Origin: Ruegeria sp. THAF33
GTDB lineage: Bacteria; Pseudomonadota; Alphaproteobacteria; Rhodobacterales; Rhodobacteraceae
Assembly: GCF_009363615.1 (NCBI RefSeq)
Contig: NZ_CP045384.1
Coordinates: forward strand, 350,501-414,500
Reading direction: 5' to 3'
DNA: 64,000 bases
Position 1 is the first letter of the stretch, and every line of letters starts with the position of its first letter. The position numbers and the translations under genes were made by a program. Below the pieces are notes generated by a model that had not been told where the DNA came from, did not search any database, and saw nothing but the letters and a program-made list of their open reading frames with translations. This document shows positions 18,294 to 40,692 of the stretch, piece by piece.

Positions 18294-18797
18294 CTAGGTG
18301 TCAGGAGCTGAACGGACATCCGCTCGAATGACGGAAGATGCCTCATCGTCGCCGATCTGCAGCTGAGGCTCATTCGACCGCAACCACGCTGATAGGAGGT
18401 CGGTTGTGACGTTCATCTGATCCGGTTTCCGGAGAGCGCACTCCCACACCGTGGCGATGCGCCACCCGTCTTCCAGAAGCTTATCGCGAACTGCCTCGTC
18501 CCGAGCGACATTTGCGGTGAACTTGGCTTGCCAGAACTCCTGGCGGGTCGATGGACTGGTTGTGTAACGACAGCCCTCATGGCGGTGCCAGAAGCAGCCA
18601 TGCACGAAGACGATTGCGTGATGCTTTGGAAACACGAGGTCAGGTCGCCCGGGCAAATTTTTCGAATGCAGCCGGTAACGGAAGCCGCGGGCATGAAGTG
18701 CCCGCCGAAGCACTAGTTCGGGCTTCGTGTCCTTCCCCTTGATCCCGGCCATCATCCGGGATCGGGTCTGTTTGTCGACGATATCGGCCACGTGCAC
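18294..18797 (-). CDS. vsr: Very short patch repair (Vsr) endonuclease
   Basis: 167-residue Vsr nuclease, which nicks 5' of T:G mismatches made by deamination of 5-methylcytosine. Family blocks are complete: DIVDKQTRSRMMAGIKGKDT, then GRPDLVFPKHHAIVFVHGCF with the catalytic Asp, WHRHEGC, and WQAKFTANVARD followed by GWRIATVWECAL. It is divergent from the cytosine methyltransferase gene, its functional partner. The last ~25 residues are an extra tail. Confidence 0.93.
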   Translation of the reverse strand: MHVADIVDKQTRSRMMAGIKGKDTKPELVLRRALHARGFRYRLHSKNLPGRPDLVFPKHHAIVFVHGCFWHRHEGCRYTTSPSTRQEFWQAKFTANVARDEAVRDKLLEDGWRIATVWECALRKPDQMNVTTDLLSAWLRSNEPQLQIGDDEASSVIRADVRSAPDT

Positions 18798-18858
18798 CCT
18801 GGTCTTCGATCTGGAACCTGGTATACACCGACTGAATGAAGTTCGTCAGGAGCCTGAT

Positions 18859-20391
18859 TTGCCTTCGACTTTCGGCATCGTTGATCTGTTCGCCGGCCCC
18901 GGCGGACTTGGTGAGGGGTTTGCATCCCTTGTCGAGGACGGACATGCGCCGTTCCGGATCGGCATCTCGGTCGAGAAGGAGGCATCGGCCCATCGCACGC
19001 TGAGGCTGCGCGCGTTCCTGCGTGAATACAAGGCACGTCAAGGCGCCTTGCCCGATCAGTTCATCGATTTCCATGCAGGGCTTGTCCCCGAGCCGGATTG
19101 GTCAGCAGTCGACGCCGAAGCGTGGCAGCTTGCCATTGATGAGGCTCGTGCACTCGAGCTCGGCACTGAAGCAGCTGCGACGGCGATTGACGGTGCCATC
19201 GCGAAGCTGCGCAAAAACTATGACGATACAATTCTCATCGGCGGGCCGCCCTGTCAGGCTTATTCCATGGTTGGGCGCGCCCGGGCCAAGGGCAAGATCG
19301 GCTATGTACCTGAAGATGATGAGCGGCATTACCTATTCCGAGAGTACATCCGCGTGCTCGAAAGGCTTCGTCCCGCCGCTTTCGTCATGGAAAACGTCAA
19401 AGGCATGCTTTCCTCGACTGTTGCAAGTCGGCTTGTCTTCGAGATGCTGATGGAGGACCTGTCCTCACTTGGTACGGGCCAAGATCATCACTACGACTTG
19501 CTGTCAGTGCGAGTGGAAGACGGAAAAGCTAGCCTGCAAGAAGCAGTACGACCGTCTGATTTCATTGTGCGTGCTGAAGAATTTGGAGTGCCGCAACGAC
19601 GTCACAGGGTGATCATCGTCGGTATCCGATCCGATATTGCGGGCAAGGCAACCCGCGCCGAGATTGCCGTCTCGGGTCTGACGCGGACGGTTAGCGACGT
19701 CATCGGGACAATGCCCGACGTACGCAGCGGTATTAGCCGTGGTCGTGACGATTCATTGGCGTGGCGAGAAGAAGTTGTCGAAGCGGCGAAATTAATGGCC
19801 GACATACACAAGGGGAAAGAGAACGCTCCTCTTCGGCGGGCATTCTCATCCGTTGCCAAGCAAATGAAGTCACGGGCTCCGAACCGTCGAACTGCGTCAT
19901 GTCTGCCGGATCGTTACGGTAACTCAAACGATGAACTACAGAGCTGGCTTGAGCGGCCAGAGCTAAGTGCTATCACCCAACACGAAACTCGCGGGCACAT
20001 GGCCGCGGACCTCGGGCGGTATCTCTTCGCCGCTGTATTCGGGTCAGTGCATGGCTACAGCCCGAAGGCTGCCGATTTTCCTCTCGCGCTCAGCCCAGAT
20101 CATCGGAACTGGCACAGCGGCGTATTCAATGATCGGTTTCGAGTCCAACTTGCCGACGCGGCCGCGACTACGGTAACCAGCCATATTTCGAAGGATGGAC
20201 ATTACTTCATACACCCCGATCCATTCCAGTGCCGCAGCTTGACCGTGCGCGAGGCTGCACGACTACAGACATTCCCTGATGACTACTTATTCATGGGCAA
20301 TCGAACGCAACAGTATGTGCAGGTTGGTAATGCGGTTCCTCCGTTTCTTGCTGTCCAGATTGCTAGACTCCTAAATGCAATTCTCAACTAG
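18859..20391 (+). CDS. DNA (cytosine-5-)methyltransferase
   Basis: C5-cytosine methyltransferase, about 510 residues. Motif I FGIVDLFAGPGGLGEGF, motif IV GGPPCQAYS with the catalytic Cys, motif VI MENVKG, motif VIII PQRRHRVIIVG, a large target-recognition region and motif X QVGNAVPPFLA. I choose TTG at 18859 because AGGAG lies six bases before it and it leaves 61 bp to the divergent vsr start; an ATG at 18727 would place 70 bases inside vsr. Recognition site unknown. As modification enzyme it should protect host DNA from the nearby Z1/AIPR machinery. Confidence 0.92.
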   Translation: MPSTFGIVDLFAGPGGLGEGFASLVEDGHAPFRIGISVEKEASAHRTLRLRAFLREYKARQGALPDQFIDFHAGLVPEPDWSAVDAEAWQLAIDEARALELGTEAAATAIDGAIAKLRKNYDDTILIGGPPCQAYSMVGRARAKGKIGYVPEDDERHYLFREYIRVLERLRPAAFVMENVKGMLSSTVASRLVFEMLMEDLSSLGTGQDHHYDLLSVRVEDGKASLQEAVRPSDFIVRAEEFGVPQRRHRVIIVGIRSDIAGKATRAEIAVSGLTRTVSDVIGTMPDVRSGISRGRDDSLAWREEVVEAAKLMADIHKGKENAPLRRAFSSVAKQMKSRAPNRRTASCLPDRYGNSNDELQSWLERPELSAITQHETRGHMAADLGRYLFAAVFGSVHGYSPKAADFPLALSPDHRNWHSGVFNDRFRVQLADAAATTVTSHISKDGHYFIHPDPFQCRSLTVREAARLQTFPDDYLFMGNRTQQYVQVGNAVPPFLAVQIARLLNAILN

Positions 20392-23238: not shown

Positions 23239-25059
23239 TTAATTCTCCTGCAGTTCATCAATTCCTCCATATTGCTGGGGAAAAGTGACTAACTTGATTT
23301 TATTCCACGTTTCGAGTCTTTTGGCGACTTCGGAAAATTGCTGACCTGGAGCGATCCTATTGAACTCGGAATTCACAATTACTGCCCAGTCCCAAAGCAG
23401 ATCCCGGAACTCTGCCGAGATACCTTGTCGCATCCAGATCTTCTCAAGGTCGAGCCTATCTCCAATTCGATCTGCGACTACTGCAACAACGTAGGTGGCA
23501 ATATTTACATAACCTTGGCGAAAGATCTCTTTTGCGTCTTTTGTCTTAATCATACTCTCAATGGCTTTGAACACGATTACCTTTGCAATCATTGCGCGAA
23601 ACCACTTTGCATTAAGCGGACTGGGAGCGATGTTTGGATCCTCGTCAAGCGCTGCCATGAGGGCTGCGAAGTTCTTTTCGCCGCCAAGCGCGACCTGGTT
23701 TGGCTTTCCGCGCCACGCCTCATGGTATTTGGCAAGGTCGTTCTTGGTCAGCTTGCGCCTCGGTGGGATCATCTCCTTCAACTTGCGGCGTTTAGCAGGG
23801 GTAGTGCCCTCTCTCAGCAGCATGACGTTGTAGGCGCCAGCCGCCCGCTCATAGAACCAACGGGTAGCGCCATCAGGACACCAAGTGTCGTTTGCAAGTT
23901 TTTCGAGCTCTCGATGGAATGGGCGATTTGCCGAGAGATCTGACATTTTAACTGCGTTTTGACTGTTTGCATAACGCGAGACGTTACTGATTAACCGCTC
24001 ACGCGCTTCGTCTTGTGAGGCCTTGAGAATGATGATCTTGGCCGGAACCATGACATGGCTCAGATCTATGGTACGGTCGTCGCGCGACGCGAAATAGATG
24101 CTCGATGTCGTCTGGCCACCGTTCACGATCTGCAATCCCTTCATGAACGACAAACCCAGATTACCGTCATCAGTACGCTCGAACGCAGCCTCGTCGCAGA
24201 CTAGGACCAAGCCGTTATTGAATGCGAGAAAGTGCTCCGGTTCCTTTCGCAGGGTTTCGACGATACCTTTGTTCACTGCACGTTTGTTTCCCAGGAACGT
24301 GCGAATGTTGGCTTCGAGTAGCGTTGTGCCGTAACGAAGATAAAGATCTCGAATAAGTTGCCCGGGAATGGCAGTCAGGGCGTACTCATAATCCGCGTCA
24401 GGATCAGGAACGTGAACACAAGGTAGAGGTCGACCTATCGACTGAACAAAACTGACTGCGAGTTCATCCCTTGGTTTTCCTTCGGTGTGCCGAAACAGCC
24501 GCTCAATATCCATGGCCTCGACAGCCACCATCTTCTGATGAACCTCTTTGTTCGAGAAACGCTTGGTTTTGGTTCGTCCATCTGTGATCACGAAAACCCG
24601 TAAGCGGTCGATGTCGTGCCATCGGGAACGGATGGTTGCAACGAGGTCCCTGACCGGGTGGGTAGGATCTATTTTTGCGTCAAGCTGGCCACTCGCAGCG
24701 CGAAAGAGGAAGCGTACGCCTTCGCTCGCCGTTCTTGTGGCGTCTGAGTCACGTAGATCGTTTAACTCATCTGTTCCAAAATAGTGGGTCACGAACAGGT
24801 CGAGCGCCGTTTCGTCGGAGCTGAGGGCATAGCCGGTTATGCGCAGCTTGGCGTTACCGACCTTGCCGTTCCAATGACAAACGGTGGGTGCGTCGCATAT
24901 GCCGGTTTCTGCCACGTGCTCCATGACCATTTCGGCAAAAACGAGTTCCTCAGAAGGAAAGGGACCCTCACCATCCGAAACACGTTCGGCGATGATCGTC
25001 TGCATGTCGGAACGAAAATTGTAGTGAAATTCTTCAAGACTCATGTCAATCCAGTCCAA
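23239..25059 (-). CDS. AIPR family protein (abortive infection phage resistance)
   Basis: 606 residues of the AIPR type. Recognisable parts are the mid-protein [32 protein letters not shown] and [19 protein letters not shown], the conserved core of the family, followed by [21 protein letters not shown] proteins occur in abortive-infection loci and in MutL/Z1 restriction-like systems; some have been linked to RNA or DNA cleavage, but no nuclease motif is certain here. The start overlaps the PD-(D/E)XK gene by 14 bp, so it is the last gene of the coupled operon before the IS3 insertion. Confidence 0.9.
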
Positions 25060-26050
25060 ACTCGTTGATCAACTCTGGAAGGGTAATGGAAGGAACTTCC
25101 AAAGCATCCAGGTCAAGGACATAGGCGGCAGAACGGATGGCGATTGGCAGGTCAGTACGCGTGAGGCGTGGCATGTGACCTTCCGCGCGAAATCCCTTTG
25201 CATCCTTCAATATCAGCGTGCGGCCATAGAGCGGCGCATGCTCGTCAAGGTACCCCATCACCATCAGTAGGGCTTCGAAGCTTCGCTGCACCCCAGCACG
25301 CTCAAACCTTTCGCGGAGTTCAGACACGAAATCGACAAGTGAAGATCCGTCCGTGTTTTCCTCGAAGCGAAGCCCGCAAAGAAGAATTGGATCTCGAGAA
25401 CCATCCAGCTGCTCGATGCTGTTGATCCGGGCAAGGAAGCTGCCGGTCCGAACCGTGCTCTTTACTTCAATCGCGCCTCCGCGCACGTGAAAGTCTTGCG
25501 CTGCTCGTAATGGTCCTTGCCAGCAATCGAGAGCACCAACTCCCAAGGAAGTGTCCGCGAGCAGTCTCAAAATCCATAACTCGCCGAGAAGGCCGATCTG
25601 TGCATCGGGTGAAAGGGGGCGGTGCGTACGGGCCATGAATGCCTGCCATTCCCTGACCCGTTCGAGGAAGGCCTCTATCACATCGCGCTTCGCCGTGTTT
25701 GCTGCGACTTCCAATGTTCGCAAGACATCGACGACCATTATGGCGAAGATGTCCGGCGATCCTTCGGGCCGTCTGACCAACGCTATGGCAGTCTTTTCGG
25801 CAACGACAGTCTGACCCTCGATGACAACGACATCGAAACCCTTGCCTTCAGGCAACCGTGCCGAATTCATTGACCACGAGCTGGGAAATGAAACAATTAA
25901 CGCTTCTCGCCCCAGGGGGAAGTGGCAGCCGGCCTCAACAGAGACAGCACCCATCTCGGTGAGATGTACAAAGCGCCAGTCTTCACTGGCCTCCTGGCGC
26001 GCGAGCGCTCGCCAAGCGCGTTCAAGCCCTTCCTCAGTCCACCCAGTCAT
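25046..26050 (-). CDS. PD-(D/E)XK motif protein (DUF4420)
   Basis: 334 residues. The central block GLLGELWIL (about residue 155) and DFHVRGGAIEVKST give the acidic residue and the E-x-K of a PD-(D/E)XK nuclease fold, matching the DUF4420 family. It overlaps the Z1 gene upstream by 17 bp and the AIPR gene downstream. In this gene order it is the probable nuclease of the system, acting on DNA engaged by the Z1 and MutL-like ATPases. Activity is inferred. Confidence 0.88.
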   Translation of the reverse strand: MTGWTEEGLERAWRALARQEASEDWRFVHLTEMGAVSVEAGCHFPLGREALIVSFPSSWSMNSARLPEGKGFDVVVIEGQTVVAEKTAIALVRRPEGSPDIFAIMVVDVLRTLEVAANTAKRDVIEAFLERVREWQAFMARTHRPLSPDAQIGLLGELWILRLLADTSLGVGALDCWQGPLRAAQDFHVRGGAIEVKSTVRTGSFLARINSIEQLDGSRDPILLCGLRFEENTDGSSLVDFVSELRERFERAGVQRSFEALLMVMGYLDEHAPLYGRTLILKDAKGFRAEGHMPRLTRTDLPIAIRSAAYVLDLDALEVPSITLPELINEFGLD

Positions 26051-28922
26051 TCAGACCTCCCCACAGAACGCTGTTGGCGATATACTTGGAATTGGAAACT
26101 CTTCTCTCGGAAGTGCTCGAAGGGAAGCTGATTGCCCAAGCTACTACAGGGTCTGCATTTTCGAGTTCAGGGACGCCAGAGCCGGCAGGATCCAGCAGGT
26201 AGAGCATCAGTAAGCCACGTTCGCGCCGAGCCGGAATGCCAGCGTCAAGTACCCCGTTTCCGAGAACGTGACGGATCTGGGGTCCTCTGGGTTCGGTAGG
26301 TGGTTCTTTGCCTTCGTTTCGATCCGTATCATTGCGCCAGGTTTTTTGACTGAGTTCGAGGGCTGCCTTCCACTCTGCCTCGGTTAGATCAATAGCCTGA
26401 TCGCGTGGGGAAATGAGGGTCTTGATGGAGTACCGATCCGCATGCTCGGCCGCTCTGCGGCGATCCAGCATTTTGACCGATGCGCCACCAACCGACTTTT
26501 CTGTTCCGGGTTGTTCCTTTCCGATAAGGGCCACGGTCCAGTTTGTCAGTTCTTGGTCCTTGTTCATTTCCTCAACGAAGTCTGCGATCAGCGGGCTCAT
26601 AATCCGGAAGCTGGCCGAATGGGTCCTGTACTCCCGAAGGAACGAGATCACGCTGAGTGCTGGCACATCTCGCCACAGGTGTCCGTTCCACTTCTGACCT
26701 GCAGGTACAAAGAGCTGGTGGTTCAGGTCTTTCGATGGGCCTAGTGCGCTGATGAAGCGATCAGTGGCATTGAAGTTTACCGTGATATCGTCCCTTCGAT
26801 TTGGGAACACGATGGTCTGCAGCAGATCGCCTGAATAGGTCAACTGCATCGCTCGCGCGTTTCGCATCTTTGCCCGCGACGTCACGGTCAGCACGGAGTG
26901 GGATTTCACGCGCAGGCCGAACTGCTTCGGCGTGGCACCGGCCGCAACCATGTTATCAAACTCTTGGCGAAGCTCTTCGGCTGCATCGGCGATGTGGCCG
27001 AACCACTCCACCATTTCTTCGGATGTGTATAGGCGGCAGACATCGAGGTAGCCGTCACGGTAGCCGAACCACCGACCCATTTGCATCAGTGTGTCGTACA
27101 TGCGTGCGGTCCGCAGGAAGTAGCTTGTGCAGAGACCCTCGAGCGTCAGACCACGCGCAAGCTTGTCGCCACCGATGGCGATAACCTTCAGGCCGCTGGC
27201 GTCGTTCTCGGCATAGTCCAAAGCGTCCTTCGCCGTGCCGTTGATCTCGCGCACGCGAATGTCCGACAGGACGTCCGGCAAAACGTCTCGAATTTCCGCC
27301 CATGAGAAATCATCCAGCGTCTCGCCTTCCACAAGCGCATCTCGGATCCCTCGCATACCGGGGAGAAAGGTCGCTTCATATTCTTCGCGCATGGATGCTT
27401 CAAGGGGAGCAAGTTCGATGCCACGTGTATATCGGCCTTTCATGTCTCTCACGTAGGTGGCCACCTGATTGAAGACTTCATTTTGTACTGAGGTGAAGCG
27501 CGTCACGTGGATGAGCATGGAAGAGTGCTTGTCGCCTTGTCCGCGCAGTTTCCGTACGGCGCAGGCAAACACGAATGACCGGATCGCTTCTGCGAGCGAG
27601 TCCGGCACGCGATCTTCGCCCTCCCAGCGTGGTCGATGCCCGTTCTTGTGCGGCTTCATTTCTGGCGACGTTGTCGACTTGCTGGGCATCCAGGGCTGGA
27701 ATTCATCGTCTGATAGTGCACGCACCAGTGGCAGGTCTTCTGGCGTGCTTGAAGCGGACCCAAACACGCGTCCCGGTCCGACATAGTTCGATGGTGCCGC
27801 TAGGTTGGTGATGAATGCGGAAGGGAATAGGTCGGGACCATGCTCTTGCGTTTCACCTCGCTCGTGAATGAAGATGTTTGCAAAGGGTGTCGCAGTGTAG
27901 CCGACGTAAGCCTTGCGTGCGAAGTGGTGCAAAATCGCCCGGATGAGCCTGTTGATGGTTTTCGGCTGATGCTCGAGATCTGGGTTGCCGAAATCATCTA
28001 CGACGTCTTCGCCCGTGTCTACTGAACCATGATCCGACTCATCGTCGATCACAAGAATTGGCAAATTGGTAACCATCTTGCGACCCGTTGCGGGATCGGT
28101 GTGATTGGCAACGCGATTGCGGATCCAGTGTAACAAGCGCTCAAGGACCGTCTTGTTTTTCTTGACGACGAACAACCAAGGTCGCTGCTCCGGACTGATA
28201 TTCATCTTGGCCGCAACGGCTGTGTTGAAGTCGCCTTTGTCACTTCGATTAGTTGCGGCATTGGGACGGACAGATGTGTCGTTGTCGATCAGTCCGACCC
28301 CGACCGCGGGAAGCTCATCGGCATCCGCGATCGTGGCAAAGCCGAGAAACCCCTCGTCTAGGCGGATCTGGGTCTGAGCCCTCAAGTTGTTGTGAAGACC
28401 CGCAAGCACGATAATGATCTTGTAACCAGCGTCTGCGGCCTTGCAGATCAGACCGGTGTAGTTGCCTGTCTTTCCGGACTGCACGTGGCCGACGACGAGA
28501 CCGCGGCGATCCCAAGCGCCTTCGCGGACCGGATCCTCGAGGTTTGAAAGAACTTCATCGGTAGCAACGTCGAGGGCGTCGAGAGCCGACCACGGAATAC
28601 GCGTTTCCATGTATTCGGAGTAGCGTTGCCAGTATGTCCACCCCTTTTTTCTTTCAGCGTCGAGCCACGGAATATGGTCCTCGCCGTTCATCAGGGTGGC
28701 GTTCTGACCAACGGTGCGGCTTGAGCGACGGATCAGTTCGTCAACGAGCGCATCCCGATCGACGAGGGCAAAATCCTCCTCCATCATCATTGCGAGCTTT
28801 GCCAGCTCCTTTTCGATCATTTCTGGCGTCACAGGGCTCTGTGCCCGCTCCGCAGCGAGGCGCAGCATGTTCTGCGCCATGGAAAGTATTGAATCGAAGG
28901 CCTTCTGATTAGAAATCGTCAT
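26034..28922 (-). CDS. Z1 domain-containing ATPase/helicase-like protein
   Basis: 962 residues. Walker A GHVQSGKTGNYTGL near residue 150 and Walker B LVIDDESDHGSVD near residue 295 fit the Z1 superfamily-2-like ATPase, followed by KTINRLIRAILHHFARKAYV (in part), GYTATPFANIF, and the motif IGGDKLARGLTLEGL, which resembles helicase motifs V-VI. These proteins power the MutL-homologue restriction systems described by Iyer, Abhiman and Aravind. It overlaps the GHKL gene by four bases (ATGA) and DUF4420 by 17. Confidence 0.9.
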   Translation of the reverse strand: MTISNQKAFDSILSMAQNMLRLAAERAQSPVTPEMIEKELAKLAMMMEEDFALVDRDALVDELIRRSSRTVGQNATLMNGEDHIPWLDAERKKGWTYWQRYSEYMETRIPWSALDALDVATDEVLSNLEDPVREGAWDRRGLVVGHVQSGKTGNYTGLICKAADAGYKIIIVLAGLHNNLRAQTQIRLDEGFLGFATIADADELPAVGVGLIDNDTSVRPNAATNRSDKGDFNTAVAAKMNISPEQRPWLFVVKKNKTVLERLLHWIRNRVANHTDPATGRKMVTNLPILVIDDESDHGSVDTGEDVVDDFGNPDLEHQPKTINRLIRAILHHFARKAYVGYTATPFANIFIHERGETQEHGPDLFPSAFITNLAAPSNYVGPGRVFGSASSTPEDLPLVRALSDDEFQPWMPSKSTTSPEMKPHKNGHRPRWEGEDRVPDSLAEAIRSFVFACAVRKLRGQGDKHSSMLIHVTRFTSVQNEVFNQVATYVRDMKGRYTRGIELAPLEASMREEYEATFLPGMRGIRDALVEGETLDDFSWAEIRDVLPDVLSDIRVREINGTAKDALDYAENDASGLKVIAIGGDKLARGLTLEGLCTSYFLRTARMYDTLMQMGRWFGYRDGYLDVCRLYTSEEMVEWFGHIADAAEELRQEFDNMVAAGATPKQFGLRVKSHSVLTVTSRAKMRNARAMQLTYSGDLLQTIVFPNRRDDITVNFNATDRFISALGPSKDLNHQLFVPAGQKWNGHLWRDVPALSVISFLREYRTHSASFRIMSPLIADFVEEMNKDQELTNWTVALIGKEQPGTEKSVGGASVKMLDRRRAAEHADRYSIKTLISPRDQAIDLTEAEWKAALELSQKTWRNDTDRNEGKEPPTEPRGPQIRHVLGNGVLDAGIPARRERGLLMLYLLDPAGSGVPELENADPVVAWAISFPSSTSERRVSNSKYIANSVLWGGLNDWVD

Positions 28923-30421
28923 AGTGAATCTTTCACTTCAAGGGATGAAACTAGGTCGAGATACCTGTCGAATGGGGGCGTGCGACCGAGCCGTTCGCGC
29001 GCCTCAGCAGGACTCAGACCGCGAAATGCAACAAGTGCTTCGAACATCGAGGACAATGTCTCCATAACTTCTTCGTCCGATGCCCCGGTGAAACCTGTCC
29101 TCGGCGTTTCCTTGTCTTCTGCGGTGTCAAGCCAGATGCGCTGAACTGGAACGGTCTCCTCAATGAGCCTGAGAACAGCGAGGATGTCCGGTTTGAGCGA
29201 TCCTGCGCGTTTCAGGATTGAGGCGATGAGGTCATGTTCTCGGGCAATCCGGTAAGAGGTCCCTTGTGCGGAGCGCCGCACTTGCCAAGCCTCGGCAACC
29301 GCGTCCGAGCGCGTGCCCGAAACAGGCGCGACGTGACCTCGGTGGGCAAAGACCCGTCTCGCCGTGTCCCGCGTCTCCGATGCAAGGCGGTGAAGTTGAG
29401 GCCGCAGACGTACCGGCGGATTGGCGGTCGACTTCAGAACATTGATCTTCCAATCGGCGTCCGCGCTGTTTGGTATGTCAAGGCTTATGCGGGCGAGCCG
29501 GTGAGCTTCATCGCGCGGCCATGGCTTACCGCCATCGCCTAGGCCCAGCCAGCCCCCTGCAAGAAGGAGACGGCGATTGCGATAGACGTAGAAGCCCTCC
29601 TGCTGCGTCCATCCTCCGGGTCCGGCTGCGGATTCTTGTTCGGTAGGCTTGAGCATGTCGCGGTGCGGAAGGACATGACACTGAACTGTCACACCTGTCG
29701 TATGTAGGATGCGATACTCGGGGCTTTCGAGCGCTTTGCCGGGATGTCCTATCATGTAAGGATCCCAAGGCTTCACCCCCCTACCGTTGAGAAGGAGGCG
29801 CAGCGTCGGCTGCTGCCCGTCCAAAAGACGATGAAAGGTCATCGCAAAATGTGCTTCGACGCGATCGGCGAGCTCGATCATGTCGGTGGCGGCGAAGCCA
29901 TCGGTCACAATACGGTCTAGCTTCTCCCAAAGGACGATAGTGCCGTGTTCCATCTGCTCGAGGGGCGCAAGCAGTTTCTCAGATCCTTGTGCGGGCCCTT
30001 CAAAGAGCGGCCATTCGGCGCCCGGCTCCTGACCAATTAGGTCGAGATCCCAGCGCAGGCATACAACAGGTCCGCCATTCTGCCGACTGGCAACGGTCAG
30101 TCTTCGAGCTTGAGAGAAACTTGCTGTCTTAAGGCCCAGTCCGAAGCGCCCAAGGTCGCTGGCTGCGCGCTCCGCCCGAGGATCACGTGCACCAAGGCGC
30201 ATTCCGGCTTCAAGGGCCGCGTCGTCCATGCCGTCGCCGTCGTCAACAATCCTTACCCAGCTGTCTGGGCCAGCCCATTCGAGATGGATGGCGACCTCGC
30301 TTGAATTCGCTGTAATGGAATTGTCAACCAGATCGGCCAGTGCAGTAGGAAGCGCATAGCCAAGCCCGCGAAGTGACTCAAGCATCGAACCGGCATAGGG
30401 GGGAGCATTTCGCACAGTCAT
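28919..30421 (-). CDS. GHKL/MutL-like ATP-binding protein
   Basis: 500 residues with the Bergerat ATP fold at the N-terminus: ALADLVDNSITA (N motif), IVDDGDGMDD (G1) and LGRFGLGLKTAS (G2). The central part fits the S5-like domain of MutL-type ATPases with KINVLKSTANPP in the expected region. Known relatives are the MORC/MutL-like proteins of restriction systems. It overlaps the sigma-factor gene and the Z1 gene by four bases each, so all are translationally coupled. Confidence 0.88.
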   Translation of the reverse strand: MTVRNAPPYAGSMLESLRGLGYALPTALADLVDNSITANSSEVAIHLEWAGPDSWVRIVDDGDGMDDAALEAGMRLGARDPRAERAASDLGRFGLGLKTASFSQARRLTVASRQNGGPVVCLRWDLDLIGQEPGAEWPLFEGPAQGSEKLLAPLEQMEHGTIVLWEKLDRIVTDGFAATDMIELADRVEAHFAMTFHRLLDGQQPTLRLLLNGRGVKPWDPYMIGHPGKALESPEYRILHTTGVTVQCHVLPHRDMLKPTEQESAAGPGGWTQQEGFYVYRNRRLLLAGGWLGLGDGGKPWPRDEAHRLARISLDIPNSADADWKINVLKSTANPPVRLRPQLHRLASETRDTARRVFAHRGHVAPVSGTRSDAVAEAWQVRRSAQGTSYRIAREHDLIASILKRAGSLKPDILAVLRLIEETVPVQRIWLDTAEDKETPRTGFTGASDEEVMETLSSMFEALVAFRGLSPAEARERLGRTPPFDRYLDLVSSLEVKDSL

Positions 30422-33363
30422 TGGAGTTGCTCCCTGCCGGAGTCTGCTAGACCGAGGCGGCTCAGCTTACCAATTACTGCATTCCGGCTGGTTCCCCCCA
30501 GTTCCTCCGCGATCTCACTTGCGCTCATGCCGGTCGCCCAAAGCTCCTCAAGACGAGCTACTCGGTATCTCGTCCAGGACATAAGTTGCCGGTTGTTGTT
30601 ATCTGTTTCGGATGCGCCATCTTTTTCTTTGTGCAGCACAGAGGGGACTTTCAATCCGCGACTGCTGTCGTAGCCCAGTAATTCTTGGAGCTGACGCTTG
30701 CGACCAGGATGAGAAAGTCGGTCAAGGCCCTTTGCCTCGATCTGTCGAATGCGCTCGCGTGTCACTCCATAGATCTGACCAATTTCCTCGAGGGTCATCT
30801 CGGACTCGCGATCGATCCCAAAGCGCATCCGAATTATATCTGCCTCGCGCTCTGGCAGTTCAGCTAGGGCGTCCGCAATGATTTTTTCAGTCTCTGCCTC
30901 GTCGAAGGCGTTCGCGTCCTCTTGACCAGGGAATATCTCATCCCAGTCGTCGATGCTTTCTGGATACACAGCCTCGCGGGGAAACCCACGAAACTGAGAC
31001 ACCTCTTCAGTTGTCCATTCCAGTTCCTCGGCAAGATCCTTTTCGGAAACATAGCCGTCGGCCCTAACGTCGAGCTTATCCATGGCGAGATCTAACCTCG
31101 CAATTTTCTCCTTCCTATGAACAGGGATGCGGATCGTAGATCCTTCGTCAGCACGCCATCGCATGATCGCCTGCCGCATCCAGTAAGAGGCATAGACAAC
31201 GAAGCGATAACCGCGCTCTGGATCAAAGCGCCGCGTGGATCGCTGTAGCCCCATGAACGCCACCTGAAAGACGTCCTCCGGGTCTTCACCTTCCTCCACG
31301 CTCCGTGCAGCAAAGCGTCGTGCGTAAGGCAGGTGTTTGCGGACTAGTCGCTCGTTGGCGGCCTCAAAGAGCGAGATTTGCGTATTCAGCTCGTTGACAT
31401 GCTCTGTGCTGGCAAGGTTTTGTTCAATCGAACTAACGAGCTCCTTTAGGAATCCCAGAGATAGATCGAGCGCCTCAAGCGCTTCAAGCGCTTGCCGTCG
31501 CCGTTTACCATCCATAACGCGTCCATTTTCTTGCCAAGACTTGAGGGATTCCGCAGCGGCCATGACTTCGGCCGTCTCGGTGTGGCCGGGGCGAGAGGGG
31601 ATTATGGTCTTCAGCGAGACAGAACTTGGGTTCCGGACGCCACTCTGGATGGTGTCGACGACATCAAGGATCGTTTGGACGGCGGCTTCGGAGGCGAGAA
31701 TTCCCAACTGAAGCCCTTGCTTTGCCCGGACCATGGGCTCCAAGAGTTGCCGTTCATCGGACTTGTCCATGACGAAGCGATGTGTTCCAGGCAGCCGCGT
31801 CGATCTTGTGAGAGCTGTCTCGATTGCTTCAGAAAGCTCATCCGAAGATATCTCCGTTCGGGAGTCCCAAAGCCCGTCATTATGCCTGAAGGCTAAATCT
31901 ACCTCGTCGAAGCCGCCGACCTCAAGGTTGCGCTGGAGGTTGATGCGCAATTCCTCAAGATCACCATTGCCGTCGCATAGAGCGAGAAGGCTTTCGATGT
32001 CGCTGGATGAGTACCATCCCTTTTGCAAAATTTCCTTGGCCCATGAGGTGCAGATCTCCGGATCGATTGACAGTCGCGTGCCGCTCTGAACCACCGCGGA
32101 TTTGATTGATTGGCGCCCACGGTTACGTACCTTGAGAAAATCATGCTCGGTGCGATTATCCGAGCTTACGGCGGCGGCACCAATGCCTTCACCGGCAATC
32201 GATGCTGGTGAAAGGTCGAGATCCCAATCTCCGTGCTCATCCGTGGAAACTACAGGTGAGGGACTGACGAGCGCAACGAATGTCCCCGAAACCGCTTCGC
32301 GCTTGGACTCGCCGAAGAAATTCTCCGGCTCTTCCTCAGCTTCAAAAACAAGCAAGTCGTCAAGGTCATCTAGTTGGCTTGGTGCCGCATTAGATTGCTC
32401 AGTCTCCGCGCTGAGCGGTTCCGGTTGCGCTGCAATGGGCGGAGCGGCAACGGACGGGGGTACTTCAGCTAACGTTTCGGAGCTGCTGTCGTCATCACCC
32501 TCTTTTTTCCACAGGCCGAGACGATGTGCTTTGCTCAGCACTGCATTGCGGCTGACCCCACCCAACTCCCTTGCGATCTGGTTCGCACTTCGGCCTTCGG
32601 CCCACATTCTTTTCAGGAGGTCGACCCGCTCCTCTGGCCAAGACGACCTTGCGGATGACTTTGGATTTTCTTCGTATTGGGTGAGCTCCGTGCGCTCACT
32701 GGTTGTTCCCCTCAACCTGTATATACCCAAACAGTGAATCTGATTGAGTATTGCGCCGGGAGTGGCGGGTCCGCCAAGTTTTTGAGCGATCTGGCCTGGT
32801 TCTGCGCCTAAGGACCACAGTCGTGTCAGTTCCTCATTTCTTTCTTCGGTCCAATACTTTTCCTCAAATTGTTCATCAGCATGCTTCGAAGGCGCTTCCG
32901 GTTTTCTTTGCGGGGTTGGCGAGATTCGATGTTCTGAAACATCGTTTCTAAGCGCTTTGCTGGTTTCGGATCTTGGGGTGATGCCGCCTTCTTCAGGTTT
33001 TTCTTCGGTTGGCGATTCTGTAACAAGCGAAGACAGAAGCTGCGATGCTAACCCGTGACCCTCGGAAAATGCGACGTCAGCGGGGGTTTGCCGTTCATCG
33101 TTAAGTGTATTGGGGTCGGCCCCGGAACGGATGAAGAGATCGCATAGAGCAAGGTTTCCCGACCGTGCTGCCAGATGGAGTGGGGTGTCTCCCTTCGGAT
33201 CAGAAAAATGGAGGCGTGCAGACGCAGCGAAATCGGAAAGTCTATCGAGCTTACCTTCGGCAATCAGCCGGATCTCGTAAGGGGCAAGAACTTGGCTTTC
33301 GGGTGTGTAGTTAGGCGAGGCACGACCGCCCAGAACTCGAGACAATTTATCCATAATTTTCAT
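30418..33363 (-). CDS. Ankyrin / GcrA-like HTH / sigma-70 fusion protein
   Basis: About 981 residues, in an order I do not know from any named family. Residues ~57-112: ankyrin-type repeats (GDTPLHLAARSGNLALCDLF). ~169-218 and ~240-287: two GcrA-like helix-turn-helix segments (WPEERVDLLKRMWAEGRSAN). Acidic linker. ~673-748: sigma-70 region 2 with DPEDVFQVAFMGLQRSTRRF, then YWMRQAI and RIPVH of region 3. ~833-891: region 4, LPEREADIIRMRFGI to GVTRERIRQIE. ~928-978: a third GcrA-like segment. Start at 33363 has GGGAGG six bases upstream; a longer frame exists. It overlaps the WYL gene end and the GHKL start. A dedicated sigma factor of the defence operon is inferred. Confidence 0.85.
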   Translation of the reverse strand: MKIMDKLSRVLGGRASPNYTPESQVLAPYEIRLIAEGKLDRLSDFAASARLHFSDPKGDTPLHLAARSGNLALCDLFIRSGADPNTLNDERQTPADVAFSEGHGLASQLLSSLVTESPTEEKPEEGGITPRSETSKALRNDVSEHRISPTPQRKPEAPSKHADEQFEEKYWTEERNEELTRLWSLGAEPGQIAQKLGGPATPGAILNQIHCLGIYRLRGTTSERTELTQYEENPKSSARSSWPEERVDLLKRMWAEGRSANQIARELGGVSRNAVLSKAHRLGLWKKEGDDDSSSETLAEVPPSVAAPPIAAQPEPLSAETEQSNAAPSQLDDLDDLLVFEAEEEPENFFGESKREAVSGTFVALVSPSPVVSTDEHGDWDLDLSPASIAGEGIGAAAVSSDNRTEHDFLKVRNRGRQSIKSAVVQSGTRLSIDPEICTSWAKEILQKGWYSSSDIESLLALCDGNGDLEELRINLQRNLEVGGFDEVDLAFRHNDGLWDSRTEISSDELSEAIETALTRSTRLPGTHRFVMDKSDERQLLEPMVRAKQGLQLGILASEAAVQTILDVVDTIQSGVRNPSSVSLKTIIPSRPGHTETAEVMAAAESLKSWQENGRVMDGKRRRQALEALEALDLSLGFLKELVSSIEQNLASTEHVNELNTQISLFEAANERLVRKHLPYARRFAARSVEEGEDPEDVFQVAFMGLQRSTRRFDPERGYRFVVYASYWMRQAIMRWRADEGSTIRIPVHRKEKIARLDLAMDKLDVRADGYVSEKDLAEELEWTTEEVSQFRGFPREAVYPESIDDWDEIFPGQEDANAFDEAETEKIIADALAELPEREADIIRMRFGIDRESEMTLEEIGQIYGVTRERIRQIEAKGLDRLSHPGRKRQLQELLGYDSSRGLKVPSVLHKEKDGASETDNNNRQLMSWTRYRVARLEELWATGMSASEIAEELGGTSRNAVIGKLSRLGLADSGREQLQ

Positions 33364-34207
33364 AAACGGCCTCCCTGTTGAGAAGCACGATTTGCTGATC
33401 CTGCGGCTTCCTTGCGCCAGGATCAGTATCAAGCCCAAGTCGTCTTAGCGCATAATAGAGCAGCGCACGCCGAACATTGATTTTTGCCCTGCCACCGCGC
33501 ATGCCGTAGTCGAGAGCGATGACCTTGGCTTGGGTCTCCGAAAGGGCGGGGTGTGGCCCGATCTCAAGCGTAACATGTTCTTGCCAATCCGCATCGGCCG
33601 CATCCGTGACTCTGCTGGCCTCTACACCGCGCGTCTGGAGGATGCGCGAAAGCAGGAAATCCTTGAAGATCTCGTCAGTCTTACAATAGGCCCGGGTGTG
33701 CCATCGAAATCCATCGAACCCGATGGCATGGGGCGCGATCCACCGCCAGCTCGGCTCTGGGCGCGAAAGGAACTGATACTTCACCTCGATCGCTTCAGAG
33801 CGGCGGATTGCACCAACAACAGATCGTAGTGTCACGGGGTCCACACCACGGGCCGGAGTGGGCGCGGAGTCATAGGCTGGTAGCTCGGCGATCCATGCGT
33901 CGTCGCTGTCCATGACGCCGTCAGCCAAAGACCGAAGCTGTGCGAGGTAGCGGCTTGCATCGGGTTTCAGGAACTGTGCAGCATATTCGGGGCCTCGGAC
34001 ATACGTCCGGGCGCTCTTATCGTAGACCATGTTTTCCGGAGCCAGACCGATATAGCGGTTCAGGTCGGCGGACGCTTGGTTCACCGATTGTCCGAACTGC
34101 TCCATCAAATCACTGCGGTTCACATGCCCCTCCCAAAACAATCGGAACTCGATGAACTCGAGGCGCTGCGTGACTCCCCATCGAAGCTCCGGCTTGTCGC
34201 TATCCAC
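33347..34207 (-). CDS. WYL-domain transcriptional regulator (BrxR/CapW-like)
   Basis: 286 residues: N-terminal winged helix (RLEFIEFRLFWEGHVNRSDL), then a WYL domain with IEVKYQFLSRPEPSWRWIAP and a WYL-like HTRAYC, and a C-terminal WCX-like part. Regulators of this build (BrxR, CapW) repress phage-defence operons until a ligand, probably nucleic acid, releases them. It is the first gene of the operon, overlapping the sigma-fusion gene, so autoregulation is likely. Confidence 0.9.
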   Translation of the reverse strand: MDSDKPELRWGVTQRLEFIEFRLFWEGHVNRSDLMEQFGQSVNQASADLNRYIGLAPENMVYDKSARTYVRGPEYAAQFLKPDASRYLAQLRSLADGVMDSDDAWIAELPAYDSAPTPARGVDPVTLRSVVGAIRRSEAIEVKYQFLSRPEPSWRWIAPHAIGFDGFRWHTRAYCKTDEIFKDFLLSRILQTRGVEASRVTDAADADWQEHVTLEIGPHPALSETQAKVIALDYGMRGGRAKINVRRALLYYALRRLGLDTDPGARKPQDQQIVLLNREAVYENYG

Positions 34208-34561
34208 TTCGCACTCCCGACCCGGTGCGTATGATTAATGTACGCGCCCATTTTTTGTGCTGATCGAAAGCTAGCGGGGACTCGTGTCGGATTCAATCGG
34301 AATCCTACGATGTTTCGGGGGTTTGCTCGAACGAACAGAACCTGAAGATCGCAGAACTTCTGTCCTTTCGATATTAATAATGTGAATAATTTTTCTTTGA
34401 ATGCCACCAGCCAAACAGAATTGACCATACAAGTGAAGTTCGTCGCAAACGGACGTGATGCAACAGTCCAACTCTTAGGTTTGGAGCGCGAGCTAAACAG
34501 GGCGGACCAGCTTTAGCCGTGCAGCAGCTTATAGCGATCCGGAAGACATGCCGTAGGCGCT
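34208..34561. other. Intergenic region upstream of the WYL operon
   Basis: 354 bases without a convincing gene. It must hold the promoter of the leftward WYL operon; the AT-rich stretch at about 34,370-34,395 is the only promoter-like part I see, but I cannot fix -35/-10 boxes. It also takes the 3' end of the GAF/TIR-like gene from the right. Confidence 0.45.
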
Positions 34562-35713
34562 TCACGAGATTAAGCTCTTGATACTGGCAGACACCATCGC
34601 CTCGAATTGGTCAGCGTTCAGGGCATTGCCCTTGCGCGGTACAAAAACAAACCGCTGCTCCGCGAAATCGAAGGGAAGATCCGAGGTCCGCTCTTTGTCC
34701 TCACGGATCGGCAACCAACGGCGGATGTCTTCAGGCGAGTTCCCATAATGGGCGTGCATCATCCCTGCCTCTATCAATACGTTGGGGTTGTCTTGGTACC
34801 TGGTCTTCTTTCCACCTCGTGGCAAAGGCTCCGAGAAGTAGCAGATGCCGTAAGCTGCCTCATTGATCTTGTTGATGATACCCGCAGTGATCGAACCAGT
34901 CTTCGTATCCTTGTCCCAGCAATAGAGCTCGATCTGGTTCTTGAAGCTCTTTTCGCAAACAGCCCGGACGATCTCTATGACCTTAGGATCGGCGCGCTGC
35001 CCGAAGGCAAAGAACACTTGCGGGGTTCGCAGCGATCCAGGCTGCGTCGGATCGGATAGCTTTGTTTTTAAATCCTCGGCTGCCCGTGCGGTGCCGTTGC
35101 TTTGCTCCCTGGTAGTTTCGAATAGCCAGATTACCCGTGAAATAGCTTTGACCAATGTGCCTATCTGTTGCGTCCGTTCAGGCGTGAAACAAATCCGGTC
35201 CCGGAACTCTATGTTCATCACACCAAAAACGCGCGAGCGCTTCTCGCCGAATCGGATCGGAACGATGACTGACGTGCCAGCGTCACCGCCGCCGTAATCA
35301 ACGTATGCTGGCAAGTCTGCCGGCGGGTCGTTGCCATTATCGCTTCCATTGCCCCAACTCCGCACCGTTACTTTGGAATAGTCGAGGCCCTTGAGTCGCT
35401 TGTCTTTGCCGCTCTTCGTCGTGATCCAAAGGGGACAGCCGTGGGTGTACGAATAGGCTCGTTGACTAGAATAATTTCCTCCGTCGTTGAAGAGCGGGTG
35501 CGAGTCTCGCTCTTCCTCGCGGCTCGACCAGAAACTCGTCAATGCAGGTTTTCCGTTGACGCGTATGCCATCGATCTTCACCTCGAAGTACACCGCGCCC
35601 AGACTGCCGAGCACGTAGCTCTCTACGGCCGCTTTGAAGGTAGTAAATGCGTGTTCGCTAATCGAGTCGATAGAATTTGCAAAATTGAGGATTCGCTGCT
35701 CTTGCATATTCAA
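34562..35713 (-). CDS. GAF-like sensor fused to TIR-like nucleotide-binding effector
   Basis: 383 residues. The N-terminal ~190 residues look like a GAF-type sensor (AVYFEVKIDGIRV, SVIVPIRFGEKRSRVFGVMN). After residue ~225 comes a TIR-like domain: PQVFFAFGQRADPKVIEIV, then AAYGICYFSE and NPNVLIEAGMMHAHYG, where the Glu is in the position of the catalytic residue of predicted nucleotide-binding TIR-like proteins. NAD+ cleavage after ligand sensing is plausible, not shown. It stands alone between the WYL operon and an IS5 remnant, and has lower GC than the core genes. Confidence 0.72.
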   Translation of the reverse strand: MNMQEQRILNFANSIDSISEHAFTTFKAAVESYVLGSLGAVYFEVKIDGIRVNGKPALTSFWSSREEERDSHPLFNDGGNYSSQRAYSYTHGCPLWITTKSGKDKRLKGLDYSKVTVRSWGNGSDNGNDPPADLPAYVDYGGGDAGTSVIVPIRFGEKRSRVFGVMNIEFRDRICFTPERTQQIGTLVKAISRVIWLFETTREQSNGTARAAEDLKTKLSDPTQPGSLRTPQVFFAFGQRADPKVIEIVRAVCEKSFKNQIELYCWDKDTKTGSITAGIINKINEAAYGICYFSEPLPRGGKKTRYQDNPNVLIEAGMMHAHYGNSPEDIRRWLPIREDKERTSDLPFDFAEQRFVFVPRKGNALNADQFEAMVSASIKSLIS

Positions 35714-35850
35714 ACCTTGTTCTTGTAACTAAAAACGACACGTACTTTCGTCAGAATGATTCAAGCATAACATAACCATAAGTCTCTGCCCAACACATGG
35801 CTGGCGCACGCAAACATTTCGGCGTAGCGCGGGTCGACTTAGTTGTGCCT

Positions 35851-36305
35851 AGGTCGTGTTGACAAAAGGGATTCACATCAGGCTTTGAGCATGATTTAAG
35901 CTGATATCTGCGATGGAGACCAGCTTGGCACGAGATTTGATGTCGGACGAGGAGTGGGCGTTCTTTGAACAGTTCATTCTTTCCGTTCGCGCCCGGAATG
36001 GGCGAAAACCTACCAACCACCGCCTTGTCCTTGACGGCGTTTTCTGGATAGCACGTACCGGCGCACCGTGGCGGGACCTTCCTGAAGAGTTCGGGAAATG
36101 GTCGAGTGTCTATCGGCAATTCCGGCGTTGGACACTTGTTGGCCTCTGGGAACAGATCCTAGAGGCGCTGATCGAGAGCAGGATCGTTCCAGATGCCCTG
36201 CAAATGGTCGACAGCACCGTGGTTCGCGCCCATCATCAGGCAGCGGGCGCTAAAGGGTGACTCCGCGACAGGGTTTTGGCCGCTCAAAGGGCGGCTTCAC
36301 GAATT
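35851..36305 (+). mobile_element. IS5-family remnant, 5' part
   Basis: Begins with GGTCGTGTTGACAAA, a typical left end of this IS5 subgroup, and carries the first transposase frame. The second frame (GTG at 36257, TPRQGFGRSKGGFT) breaks off after about 16 codons. The right half is missing. Confidence 0.7.
35913..36260 (+). pseudogene. IS5 transposase, first frame only
   Basis: 115 residues with the DUF4096-type start (LMSDEEWAFFEQFI), RTGAPWRDLPEEFGKWSSVY and the first acidic residue in QMVDSTVVRAHH. It would be joined to a second frame by frameshifting, but that frame is truncated, so no active transposase is made. Confidence 0.8.
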
Positions 36306-37047
36306 TATTGACAACGGAAGATTTCAAGGGTCGCTCGTGCGAAAAGGAACACGTTTGGAATAAAAAATTTTCTCTTCACGACAAGAGTTATAGCGCATTT
36401 GACGACCTTAGTACGAAAAAGGTTCGCCGCGGTCGGGTAGTCATGCCGAGAGAAGGAAGTCTCGTTTGACTGTATGGTTCTGCGGCTTTCACAGTTTCTT
36501 GTCGAAAACGGACTCTGCCGCGGCTCAGCAGAAGAGTTGTTGGTGATGGGCACATGCAAAGAAACCGAATGCCGGCCATGCGCGGGCCCGACCTATCCCG
36601 CCAGAAGAGCTTTGGCTCCTGATTATACCCGTCGCAATAGCACTTTCTCTTTTTCGCGGTATTGTGGACGACAAGATAGCAGCAAAAGTCACCTCTGCCT
36701 TTAGGTCCACTCGTAGCAACAATTGCATCTGCGGGCCAAGCATCAAACATTGAAGCACTCGACTTCTCTTCTCCTGATGTATCTGCGAAGGAACTTGCTC
36801 GACGATGGAAAACCTCATGGAAGACCTTGAATTTATCGGTGCTCTCGGCGTCCAAAAAGCATTCATCCACGTCGACGGTCGCGGACATAACGCAGACTTG
36901 GGCGAGGCAGTCCCGGACTGACAGAAAAACAACATTTATGAACCTTGGGCTGGGCTTGCCGTCGTCGCACGATTATTGACTAACTCATAGGTATAAGCAA
37001 ATCTGCGCACGGGTAATCTGTAGTTGAATTCAATTTATCGGGGCAAA
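36306..37047. other. Gene-poor stretch
   Basis: 740 bases between the IS5 remnant and the TPR-trypsin gene. A 166-codon open frame on the minus strand (36388-36888) shows no family pattern and no good ribosome site. The right end must contain the promoter of the four-gene operon. Probably decayed sequence. Confidence 0.4.
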
Positions 37048-38703
37048 ATGCCTAACGTTTTTAACAGTTACGACAAAGTTGTTGCGCTCGCCGAGAACAT
37101 ACGCGCTGGTTCCATAGTTTCGCAACAAGACGCGTGGGATATTATGCGGGCTCTTCAAAACTTTCGGGATTTCGAACGTGTTGTCGGTCTGGCCGAGTCG
37201 CTGCTGGTTCAGTATCCTGAGGACCACACGCTGACCAAGGCCTACGCGCAAGCCCTGGTAGAACTGGGGAACCCAATAGCGGCGCAGGGACTCTTGCAGC
37301 AGGTCTTGTCCGGTATGTCGGAGGCCGATAGGGAATTTAGCGACATTAAGGGCGTCCTCGGGCGTGCGTTCAAAGAAACGTGCCAGTCAGCAGCGCGGCT
37401 TGGACAAATTGGCTTGGCGAACGACGCTCTCACGCATTCTTTTGCAGCCTACGCCGAACCATATGAGCGAGATCCGAAAAAAAATTACTACCACGGTATT
37501 AATCAAGTGGCGCTGCTGCATTTGGCGGAGCGATGTGAAGCTGACGTGCTGACGAGTGTGAACAAGAAACAACTGGCTCGGGAGGTTCTTTCAACGCTGG
37601 ACGATACAGACACAAGCGACGTCTGGATGCGGGCAACCCGTGTTGAAGTTTGCGTGGCGCTGGAAGACTGGGACAATGCGCTGGAAGCAGTAAAAAGCTA
37701 TGTCGAAGTAAACAGCAACGGCGATAAAACAGCCACCGCCTTTCAACTCCACAGTACACTACGCCAACTGCGAGACATCTGGGACATCGGTGCGGCCGGC
37801 GATACTGGCCTCGACATCCTTACCACTCTGGAAGCTGCTGCTTTTCAACGTAGCAGCATATCTGATGTCGGCGACGGTATCAGTATCGAAAAGAGTGCGG
37901 CCAGTATGGCTGATACACTTGACTATACTAAAGAAAATGCGTCGCACCTTGAAAAGATGTTCGGGCTGGACGGCCTAAAAACACTCCGCTGGTTTCGGCA
38001 AGGTGTAGAGCGCGCCTCATCCGTGGCTTCAGTGATCGGAGAAGATGGCAGCAGGGTCGGGACAGCTTTCGCCATTTGCCCGAAAGAATGGCAATTGCCA
38101 CAGGTCGAAGCTGGCGAGATCGCGTTGATGACAAATTACCACGTCATGAACGAAAACGGATACGGTGATGAGGCGCTTACACTAGCAGAGGCCAAGGTCA
38201 GGTTCGAAGCGCTTTCGGAAAAGGAATTCCGAGCAAAGCGTATTCTCTTCGAAAACCAGACGTTTCGGAACGGTCTCGACGCTACAATTTTCACAGTTGC
38301 CGGAAACCTTCAGAAGCTGAAGCCAGTGCCTTGCAATCTCGACAGCCTTCCTCGCCTAAATAAAGATAAGCGTGTATACGTCATCGGGCACCCGGATGGC
38401 GGAGAACTACAGTTTTCGCTGCAAGACAACCGCTTGTTGGACCATGAAGGCGGGCCGGACGGCAACCCGCCCGAGCCGTCACGCGTACGTGTCCATTACT
38501 TCGCGCCGACCAAGCCTGGGAGCAGCGGCAGCCCGGTATTTAACGAAGGCTGGGAGTGTATCGCACTGCACCGTGCCGGCAGCAGATATGTCGCTGGTAA
38601 GGAACCAGGAATGAAGCAACTCAATGGAAAGACAGGCCGCTACTCAGCGAATGAAGGTGTTTGGGTTGGCTCGATAAAAGCGCGCATACCAGACAATTCA
38701 TGA
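37048..38703 (+). CDS. TPR-repeat protein with C-terminal trypsin-like protease domain
   Basis: 551 residues. The first ~250 are alpha-helical tetratricopeptide-like repeats (FERVVGLAESLLVQYPEDHT). The last ~200 are a trypsin/V8-like protease with His365 (MTNYHVMNENG), Asp411 (NGLDATIF) and Ser493 (PGSSGSPVF). No signal peptide, so it acts in the cytoplasm. ATG at 37048 has GGGG six bases upstream. It leads a four-gene operon with 64, 1 and 4 bp gaps to lipase, M15 peptidase and TIR-TPR. TPR-linked proteases of this kind occur in bacterial conflict systems and may cleave and activate a neighbour. Confidence 0.85.
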   Translation: MPNVFNSYDKVVALAENIRAGSIVSQQDAWDIMRALQNFRDFERVVGLAESLLVQYPEDHTLTKAYAQALVELGNPIAAQGLLQQVLSGMSEADREFSDIKGVLGRAFKETCQSAARLGQIGLANDALTHSFAAYAEPYERDPKKNYYHGINQVALLHLAERCEADVLTSVNKKQLAREVLSTLDDTDTSDVWMRATRVEVCVALEDWDNALEAVKSYVEVNSNGDKTATAFQLHSTLRQLRDIWDIGAAGDTGLDILTTLEAAAFQRSSISDVGDGISIEKSAASMADTLDYTKENASHLEKMFGLDGLKTLRWFRQGVERASSVASVIGEDGSRVGTAFAICPKEWQLPQVEAGEIALMTNYHVMNENGYGDEALTLAEAKVRFEALSEKEFRAKRILFENQTFRNGLDATIFTVAGNLQKLKPVPCNLDSLPRLNKDKRVYVIGHPDGGELQFSLQDNRLLDHEGGPDGNPPEPSRVRVHYFAPTKPGSSGSPVFNEGWECIALHRAGSRYVAGKEPGMKQLNGKTGRYSANEGVWVGSIKARIPDNS

Positions 38704-40135: not shown

Positions 40136-40136
40136 T

Positions 40137-40688: not shown

Positions 40689-40692
40689 CCTC

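Follow-up and report, generated by a model that had tools for sequence, protein, structure and literature searches.

The stretch of DNA analysed here, hereafter the window, comprises 64,000 nucleotides of the Ruegeria sp. THAF33 genome (NZ_CP045384.1, positions 350,501 to 414,500), and all positions given below are those of the window. As judged from its genes, it contains a putative defence operon of the MZA type, and the protein in the MzaA slot of this operon (30418..33363, minus strand, 981 amino acids (aa)) carries three GcrA-type DNA-binding modules in one chain with an ankyrin domain and sigma-70 regions 2 and 4. Comparison with related loci indicates that the modules are removable cassettes in two slots, gained and lost between near-identical copies of the operon. 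With a probability of roughly 0.4, MzaA would act as a sigma-like RNA polymerase/DNA-targeting subunit of the MZA operon, with exchangeable GcrA-type anchors in cis. The MZA defence system mzaABCDE was reportedly described by Gao et al. in 2020. The initial annotation knew of no described system with this component; however, the MZA operon is published and MzaA with it as a sigma factor, an excerpt of PMC9523054 writing "mzaA (a sigma factor)" of the system. What looks new here is the presence of GcrA-type modules in MzaA; a literature search on titles and the beginnings of abstracts, with most subscription papers outside its scope, returned no GcrA–sigma fusion and no MzaA mechanism.

The longest frame of the MzaA-slot gene (30418-33438, minus strand) encodes 1006 aa from a TTG start; starting instead at the ATG at 33363, which GGAGG precedes by about 6 bases, yields the 981-aa protein. 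The Pfam search of this open reading frame (ORF) bore out the earlier proposal of three GcrA-type segments, an ankyrin part, and sigma regions 2 and 4, with GcrA matched above the cut-off in three stretches (joint E = 4e-41) and with matches to Sigma70_r4 (5e-20), Sigma70_r2 (1e-14), and Ank (3e-7). On the minus strand, the ankyrin domain (aa 23-113, 33025..33297; Pfam Ank and AlphaFold) is followed by the N-slot module 1 (aa 170-216, 32716..32856), which is of the xGA type with a TPGAIL recognition helix, the N-slot module 2 (aa 241-287, 32503..32643) of the GcrA-like SRNAV type, an acidic linker, a middle domain conserved in the family alignment (about aa 410-640, 31444..32136), sigma-70 region 2 (aa 673-740, 31144..31347; Pfam), sigma-70 region 4 (aa 832-884, 30712..30870; Pfam and RpoD alignment), and the C-slot module 3 (aa 929-974, 30442..30579) of the SRNAVIGKLSRLGL type. 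The homologues P0001, P0002, and P0003 share the same three modules (94, 86, and 71% identity; 981, 981, and 976 aa), so that the fusion recurs in other genomes and an assembly artefact is unlikely.

In GcrA, residues 1-45 form the DNA-binding domain and residues 108-173 a second, sigma-interacting one, according to an extract of PMC7403470. The window protein resembles GcrA in the DNA-binding domain, with the SRNAV recognition helix in modules 2 and 3, whereas it has sigma in the same chain in place of a sigma-interacting domain, several DNA-binding domains, and a departing helix in module 1. Module 2 matched the crystallised GcrA DNA-binding domain (5yiu) with E = 3e-15 and module 3 is close to that domain, whereas the recognition helix of module 1 reads TPGAIL where GcrA has TRNAVI. 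Therefore, although all three segments first described as GcrA-like were matched by Pfam GcrA, module 1 is of a different type, and close likeness to GcrA is limited to the other two. The window modules matched the GcrA profile only to about position 87 of 155, whereas the genome's own GcrA matched positions 1-153; with this profile, the C-terminal sigma-interacting domain was not found in the window protein.

The sigma part of the window protein matched RpoD/SigA chains with E values down to 3e-36 and, across 224 columns spanning regions 2 to 4, is 37% identical to the RpoD of the same genome. The region 4.2 motif VTRERIRQIE is identical between the two proteins, and region 2.3/2.4 is mostly kept. 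Compared with RpoD and the group 1 and 2 sigma-70 factors, the window protein is alike in regions 2 and 4, with the motifs that we take to read the promoter largely kept, and differs in that region 1.2 was not detected, region 3.2 is shortened, and ankyrin and GcrA modules are added. Neither region 3 nor region 1.2 was among the Pfam matches of the window protein; of the full sigma regions 2, 3 start and 4 claimed in the initial annotation, regions 2 and 4 thus hold, and region 3 exceeded the Pfam cut-off in the module-free sister P0058 (27.4 bits versus 25.3). Region 1.2 was seen in distant relatives, with 28.3 bits in L085 and 21.7 bits, just below the cut-off of 22, in L084.

AlphaFold modelled the window protein poorly overall, with a mean predicted local distance difference test score (pLDDT) of 57.7, and P0058 with a similar score (60.2). 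In the window model, the ankyrin domain is clear at residues 23-113, and three-helix modules are predicted at 170-216, 241-287, and 929-974, with mid-module pLDDT of about 75-87. The top-ranked Foldseek matches of this model were sigma-70 chains (E near 1e-8); among the best 50 matches listed, the alignments with sigma-70 chains covered 266-591 columns at root-mean-square deviations of 22-39, and above 20 the homology can be read but the geometry cannot. These loose alignments are suggestive only as a hint on the origin of the middle domain, which might possibly derive from the sigma 1.2/non-conserved region; an HHalign comparison of the window family with RpoD gave no match. The VIA-align rows for the window protein were confined to the ankyrin part.

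The operon is close-packed on the minus strand, in the order WYL, MzaA-slot gene, MzaB, MzaC, MzaD, and MzaE. The start of the MzaA-slot gene overlaps the stop of the WYL gene (33347-33363), in agreement with the coupling noted at the outset, and its last 4 bases are shared with the MzaB start (30418-30421). The first gene encodes a WYL-domain regulator (33347..34207; Pfam WYL and synteny), and the others encode MzaB, a MutL/MORC-like GHKL ATPase (28919..30421; PADLOC 563 bits, HATPase_c_3), the protein in the MzaC slot by gene order (26034..28922; PADLOC MzaC 1115 bits), MzaD, a DUF4420, PD-(D/E)XK nuclease-like protein (25046..26050; PADLOC 197 bits, PF14390), and the AIPR protein MzaE (23239..25059; PADLOC 543 bits, PF10592). 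The PADLOC MzaA model (PDLC02203) matched the window protein over the sigma part only (E = 8e-34), and the NCBIfam MzaA equivalog model NF041931 gave 242 bits for the window protein and 243 for P0058. Since the curated cut-off is 800 bits, the window protein is named a MzaA-slot homologue and not an equivalog. The locus shares with MZA the gene order A-B-C-D-E, matches to all four MzaB-E models, and a MzaA with ankyrin and sigma-70 parts, whereas the three GcrA-type modules, the WYL gene in front, and the C5-methyltransferase behind are different. Three MZA loci from genomes of other classes were scanned (L084, L085, and L086), and their MzaA contains Ank and sigma regions 2 and 4 and no GcrA, which indicates that the ankyrin–sigma fusion is ordinary and that the GcrA modules are an addition.

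Sigma and MzaB-E were all present in 24 of the 37 loci tested, the window not being counted. In these 24 loci, the median identities to the window were 89, 89, 85, and 89% for MzaB to MzaE, but within MzaA only 74% for the ankyrin part, 68% for the middle, and 75% for the sigma part. Among the 37 loci, modules were found in L019, L022, L024, and L031 (C slot only), L030 (one N, one C), and L028 and L032 (two N, one C).

The turnover of the modules was followed in 121 proteins, namely the 120 listed of 546 homologues and the window protein. Trimming to the core left 99 of these, the window included, with 22 dropped because their anchors were missed; at a score above 30, 43 of the 99 contain no module and 56 contain one to four. 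At a score above 8, the 121 proteins hold 111 modules, comprising 38 N-slot SRNAV, 16 TPGAI-type, 41 C-slot SRNAV, and 16 other modules, some of the latter being single-residue variants of SRNAV; the classes were set by the recognition-helix motif, which is therefore conserved within each class by definition. In the C-slot class, Ser takes the place of the GcrA His in HRLGL in 60-69% of the modules. Parsimony on the core tree required at least 13 changes in the N slot, at least 17 in the C slot, and at least 33 of the combination for the 99 cores, and at least 11, 15, and 27, respectively, for the 82 with complete-looking starts; the tree is a quick one with no mixture model and 41 of 95 inner branches open, and the counts would be inflated by recombination within the gene or wrong gene starts.

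P0057 and P0067 have cores that are 95% identical and differ by two modules, and P0009 contains three tandem module copies of equal scores, 70 residues apart. At the DNA level, L022 (Paracoccus sanguinis) and L020 (Rhodobacter calidifons) align in two blocks, one of 5.9 kb at 95.4% and one of 9.0 kb at 98.9% identity, with a single break between them at the MzaA end, where 262 bases holding the module in L022 stand against 21 in L020. L019 (P. aeridis) parts from L020 at the same MzaA point and once more behind MzaE, and L024 parts from L014 at the same MzaA point. The MzaA of L020 and L014 ends in ELLGM; that of L019 extends 84 residues further through the module, and that of L024 likewise. 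L022 and L020 are thus a natural pair differing over about 15 kb in little beyond the presence of a structurally solved DNA-reading domain, and so offer a way to test what the sigma-like subunit does.

Purifying selection acts on the C-slot module: the ratio of nonsynonymous to synonymous substitution rates (dN/dS) was 0.08-0.26 in 27 of the 28 locus pairs, and the remaining pair had no synonymous change. The ratios were 0.08-0.16 for the N-slot SRNAV modules (three measurable of six pairs) and 0.76 (L028/L032), 0.24, and 0.25 for three TPGAI-type pairs; module 2 of the window had been drawn into the TPGAI-type set, and its three pairs, with no measurable dS, were left out.

Further variation was seen in the same family. 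P0006 has a large insert in the middle domain (aa about 580-900) with a further GcrA module. P0012, P0013, P0021, P0104, and P0107 contain an extra PF13717 segment near the N-terminus, which we take to be a zinc ribbon, as a further kind of plug-in. At the C-terminus of P0020, P0021, P0041, and P0099, the C-slot modules have a SLNEVKAELKQRG-type recognition helix, possibly of different DNA specificity.

The operon promoter, TTGAAT-17-TAGCTT (34268..34296, minus strand), has the same architecture across the family. Among 35 loci (the window and L005-L038), the WYL start was readable in 24, six having a partial WYL match and five none, and TTGnnn-17-TAnnnT was present in 24 of 24, starting at -83 to -95. 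In 18 of the 24, the -10 element is TAGCnT, which departs from TATAAT. A palindrome, CCCA-n5-TGGGC or a near form, lies downstream of the promoter in all 24; its window form, CACA-n5-TGGGC (34246..34259), lies between promoter and WYL start and is a putative operator. In the window, one GANTC overlaps the -35 element (GAATC, 34290-34294), one lies in the spacer (GAGTC, 34279-34283), and a third just upstream of -35 (GATTC, 34300..34304). The window contains 139 GANTC sites, and nowhere but at the promoter do three of them fall within 30 bp. The 4.63-Mb genome has 16 occurrences of GANTC-N6-GANTC, against nine for the pattern read backwards; one is at the window promoter and another about 55 bases upstream of a CcrM-like ORF. 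The genome encodes its own GcrA and a CcrM-like gene with a RAMA domain. GcrA prefers methylated GANTC and binds downstream of the -35 box, as stated in extracts of PMC3667746 and PMC12340889, respectively.

Taken as a sigma-like subunit, MzaA would join core RNA polymerase, and its DNA-binding domains, being fused in cis to sigma, would replace GcrA, whose docking on sigma region 2 depends on a separate domain. The modules would pull this alternative MzaA holoenzyme to particular sites, with the operon's own conserved promoter as the first candidate target, and MzaA would thereby help to switch the WYL-controlled operon on. WYL proteins can be regulators of defence loci, and the one encoded here presumably acts through the palindromes. 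Exchange of cassettes would re-address MzaA from lineage to lineage. In the window genome, the GANTC sites in the -35 element and spacer would make CcrM methylation a plausible input, which is the weakest step. Should the sigma function be borne out, MzaA would represent a sigma factor whose activator domains are built in and can be exchanged.

Several observations weigh against this scheme. Binding of MzaA to core RNA polymerase is a step that we infer, the cassette turnover would be explained just as well by a targeting subunit, and sigma region 2 has low confidence in the AlphaFold model. Relative to the genome's own RpoD, region 3.2 is divergent as well as shortened, one of two region 2.3 Trp residues is Tyr, and one region 2.4 Thr is Met. 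The same promoter occurs in loci without any module, indicating that the modules are not needed for it. A dinucleotide Markov model expects 1.02 three-GANTC clusters per 64 kb, although the same model predicts 328 GANTC sites where the window has 139; by that control, the cluster itself is not beyond chance, and the notable point is its placement on the promoter. In addition, it may be the GcrA of the host that reads this cluster. Among the module-bearing loci, L019, L022, L028, and L030 have no GANTC within 320 bp and L024 has one at -238, so that the window alone, of the six with a readable WYL start, has GANTC in the promoter core; the module-free L021 has one at -121. Methyl-GANTC control is therefore not a feature of the family. 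General methyl-GANTC autoregulation was rejected for the family on these positions and stays possible for the window, where methylation sensing would be plausible. The suggestion in the initial annotation of a dedicated sigma factor that responds to methylation state or phage DNA is partly supported. The wider reading, in which MzaA is a sigma factor turned programmable methylation-reading targeting subunit, its interchangeable GcrA-type cassettes being exchanged like restriction specificity subunits and coupling the activation of an anti-phage nuclease operon to the host's CcrM mark and cell cycle, is unlikely.

The chief rival, possible though on balance less than likely, holds that MzaA is the recognition subunit of an effector complex. 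This would agree with MzaB-E being conserved (85-89%) while the MzaA parts diverge (68-75%) and get reshuffled in the 24 loci, and with modules that vary in the recognition helix (SRNAV, TPGAI type, others). A self mark is, in turn, made likely by the partner gene of the operon, a C5-cytosine DNA methyltransferase (18727..20391, plus strand) convergent to it. Among 19 loci with at least 1.8 kb beyond MzaE, four with 302-543 bases and none there being left out, a methyltransferase of the window type is convergent behind MzaE in 15 (L006, L009, L010, L012, L015, L017-L022, L028, and L030-L032) at distances of 69 to 1563 bases; of the rest, L023 has another methyltransferase type behind MzaE, in L026 and L033 the sole methyltransferase is distant (27% identity) and lies upstream of the operon, and none was found in L024. 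This enzyme is thus a usual convergent partner of these alphaproteobacterial MZA loci, outside the matched MzaA-E models, and suggests that MZA here is probably restriction-modification-like, with 5-methylcytosine as self mark. The MutL/MORC-like ATPase restriction-modification systems of Iyer et al. 2008 (PMC2292703) are alike in placing the ATPase beside restriction-endonuclease-fold, AIPR, and DNA methylase genes, but the main text of that paper contains none of the words sigma, ankyrin, and GcrA. However, because 43 of 99 proteins are module-free, the modules are not an essential recognition element, and most of the motifs that read the promoter are retained, as they would be in a functional sigma factor.

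A quite improbable explanation is that MzaA is a guard or decoy against phage take-over of transcription, in which sigma and GcrA modules mimic the targets of phage anti-sigma factors or compete with phage GcrA and the ankyrin domain relays the alarm to MzaB-E. Sigma region 4 is a target of phage sigma-repressors and a possible GcrA homologue occurs in five of six phiCbK-like phages (extracts of PMC7403470 and PMC3556154, respectively), and the GcrA DNA-binding domain was matched in 13 of 50,697 phage records (E 0.01). Those 13 are, however, few in the searched collection, and a pure decoy may not need the purifying selection and kept recognition motif of the C-slot module. The least probable explanation treats the modules as selfish or neutral insertions that two linkers tolerate, with no defence role. 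Repeated gain and loss at the same two slots, decayed-looking C-slot copies in P0034, P0061, and P0095, and the dN/dS of 0.76 for the TPGAI-type pair L028/L032 would fit such insertions, whereas the ratios for the C slot (0.08-0.26), the N-slot SRNAV modules (0.08-0.16), and the two other TPGAI-type pairs (0.24-0.25) argue against them.

The family is patchy: it is present in 10 of 394 genomes drawn from the taxonomic family of the window, 15 of 390 from its order, and 1 of 385 from its class, in overlapping draws that each include the window's genome, and in 6 of 125 genomes of the genus of G023. Of 398 genomes sampled across the phylum, 22 have MzaB relatives. Beside a MzaB relative in a locus of the window's class (L087) lies a cytosine-methyltransferase-like ORF, and no MzaA-like ORF was noticed there in the ORF list, no profile scan having been made. 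In 12 other genomes of the same genus, no frame of sigma-factor length had a GcrA match. A plasmid-borne locus was rejected, as the window's middle domain was matched in none of 72,556 plasmid records. Two IMG/VR contigs (L037 and L038) carry parts of the locus, without modules, and the phage GcrA-like matches (H1-H13) include Phaeobacter phage MD18 at 75% identity. In L009, L023, L026, L032, and L033, the WYL match to the window is limited to the last part, next to MzaA, the rest of the gene being replaced, shortened, or strongly diverged; in L031, it is confined to an inner stretch.

In the window, an IS3-like transposase gene and an AAA_21 gene (20443-22829) separate MzaE from the methyltransferase, and the AAA_21 ATPase gene has PADLOC matches of the AriA/PtuA/OLD-like kind. 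Rfam gave nothing at gathering scores in 23000-36000. Further defence-like genes lie at 34562-35713, 37024-42021, 44682-49447, and 55695-57659, and comprise a weak CAP12/TIR with GAF (below the cut-off), trypsin-TPR-S, an LCAT-like hydrolase, TIR-TPR-S, nSTAND1 with TIR, and CHAT; none of those tested with PADLOC was matched (the first at 0.001, the others at 1e-10). At 14131-17456, a ParB-like/DNA methyltransferase fusion lies beside a phage terminase large subunit gene, in what may be a prophage remnant or an island.
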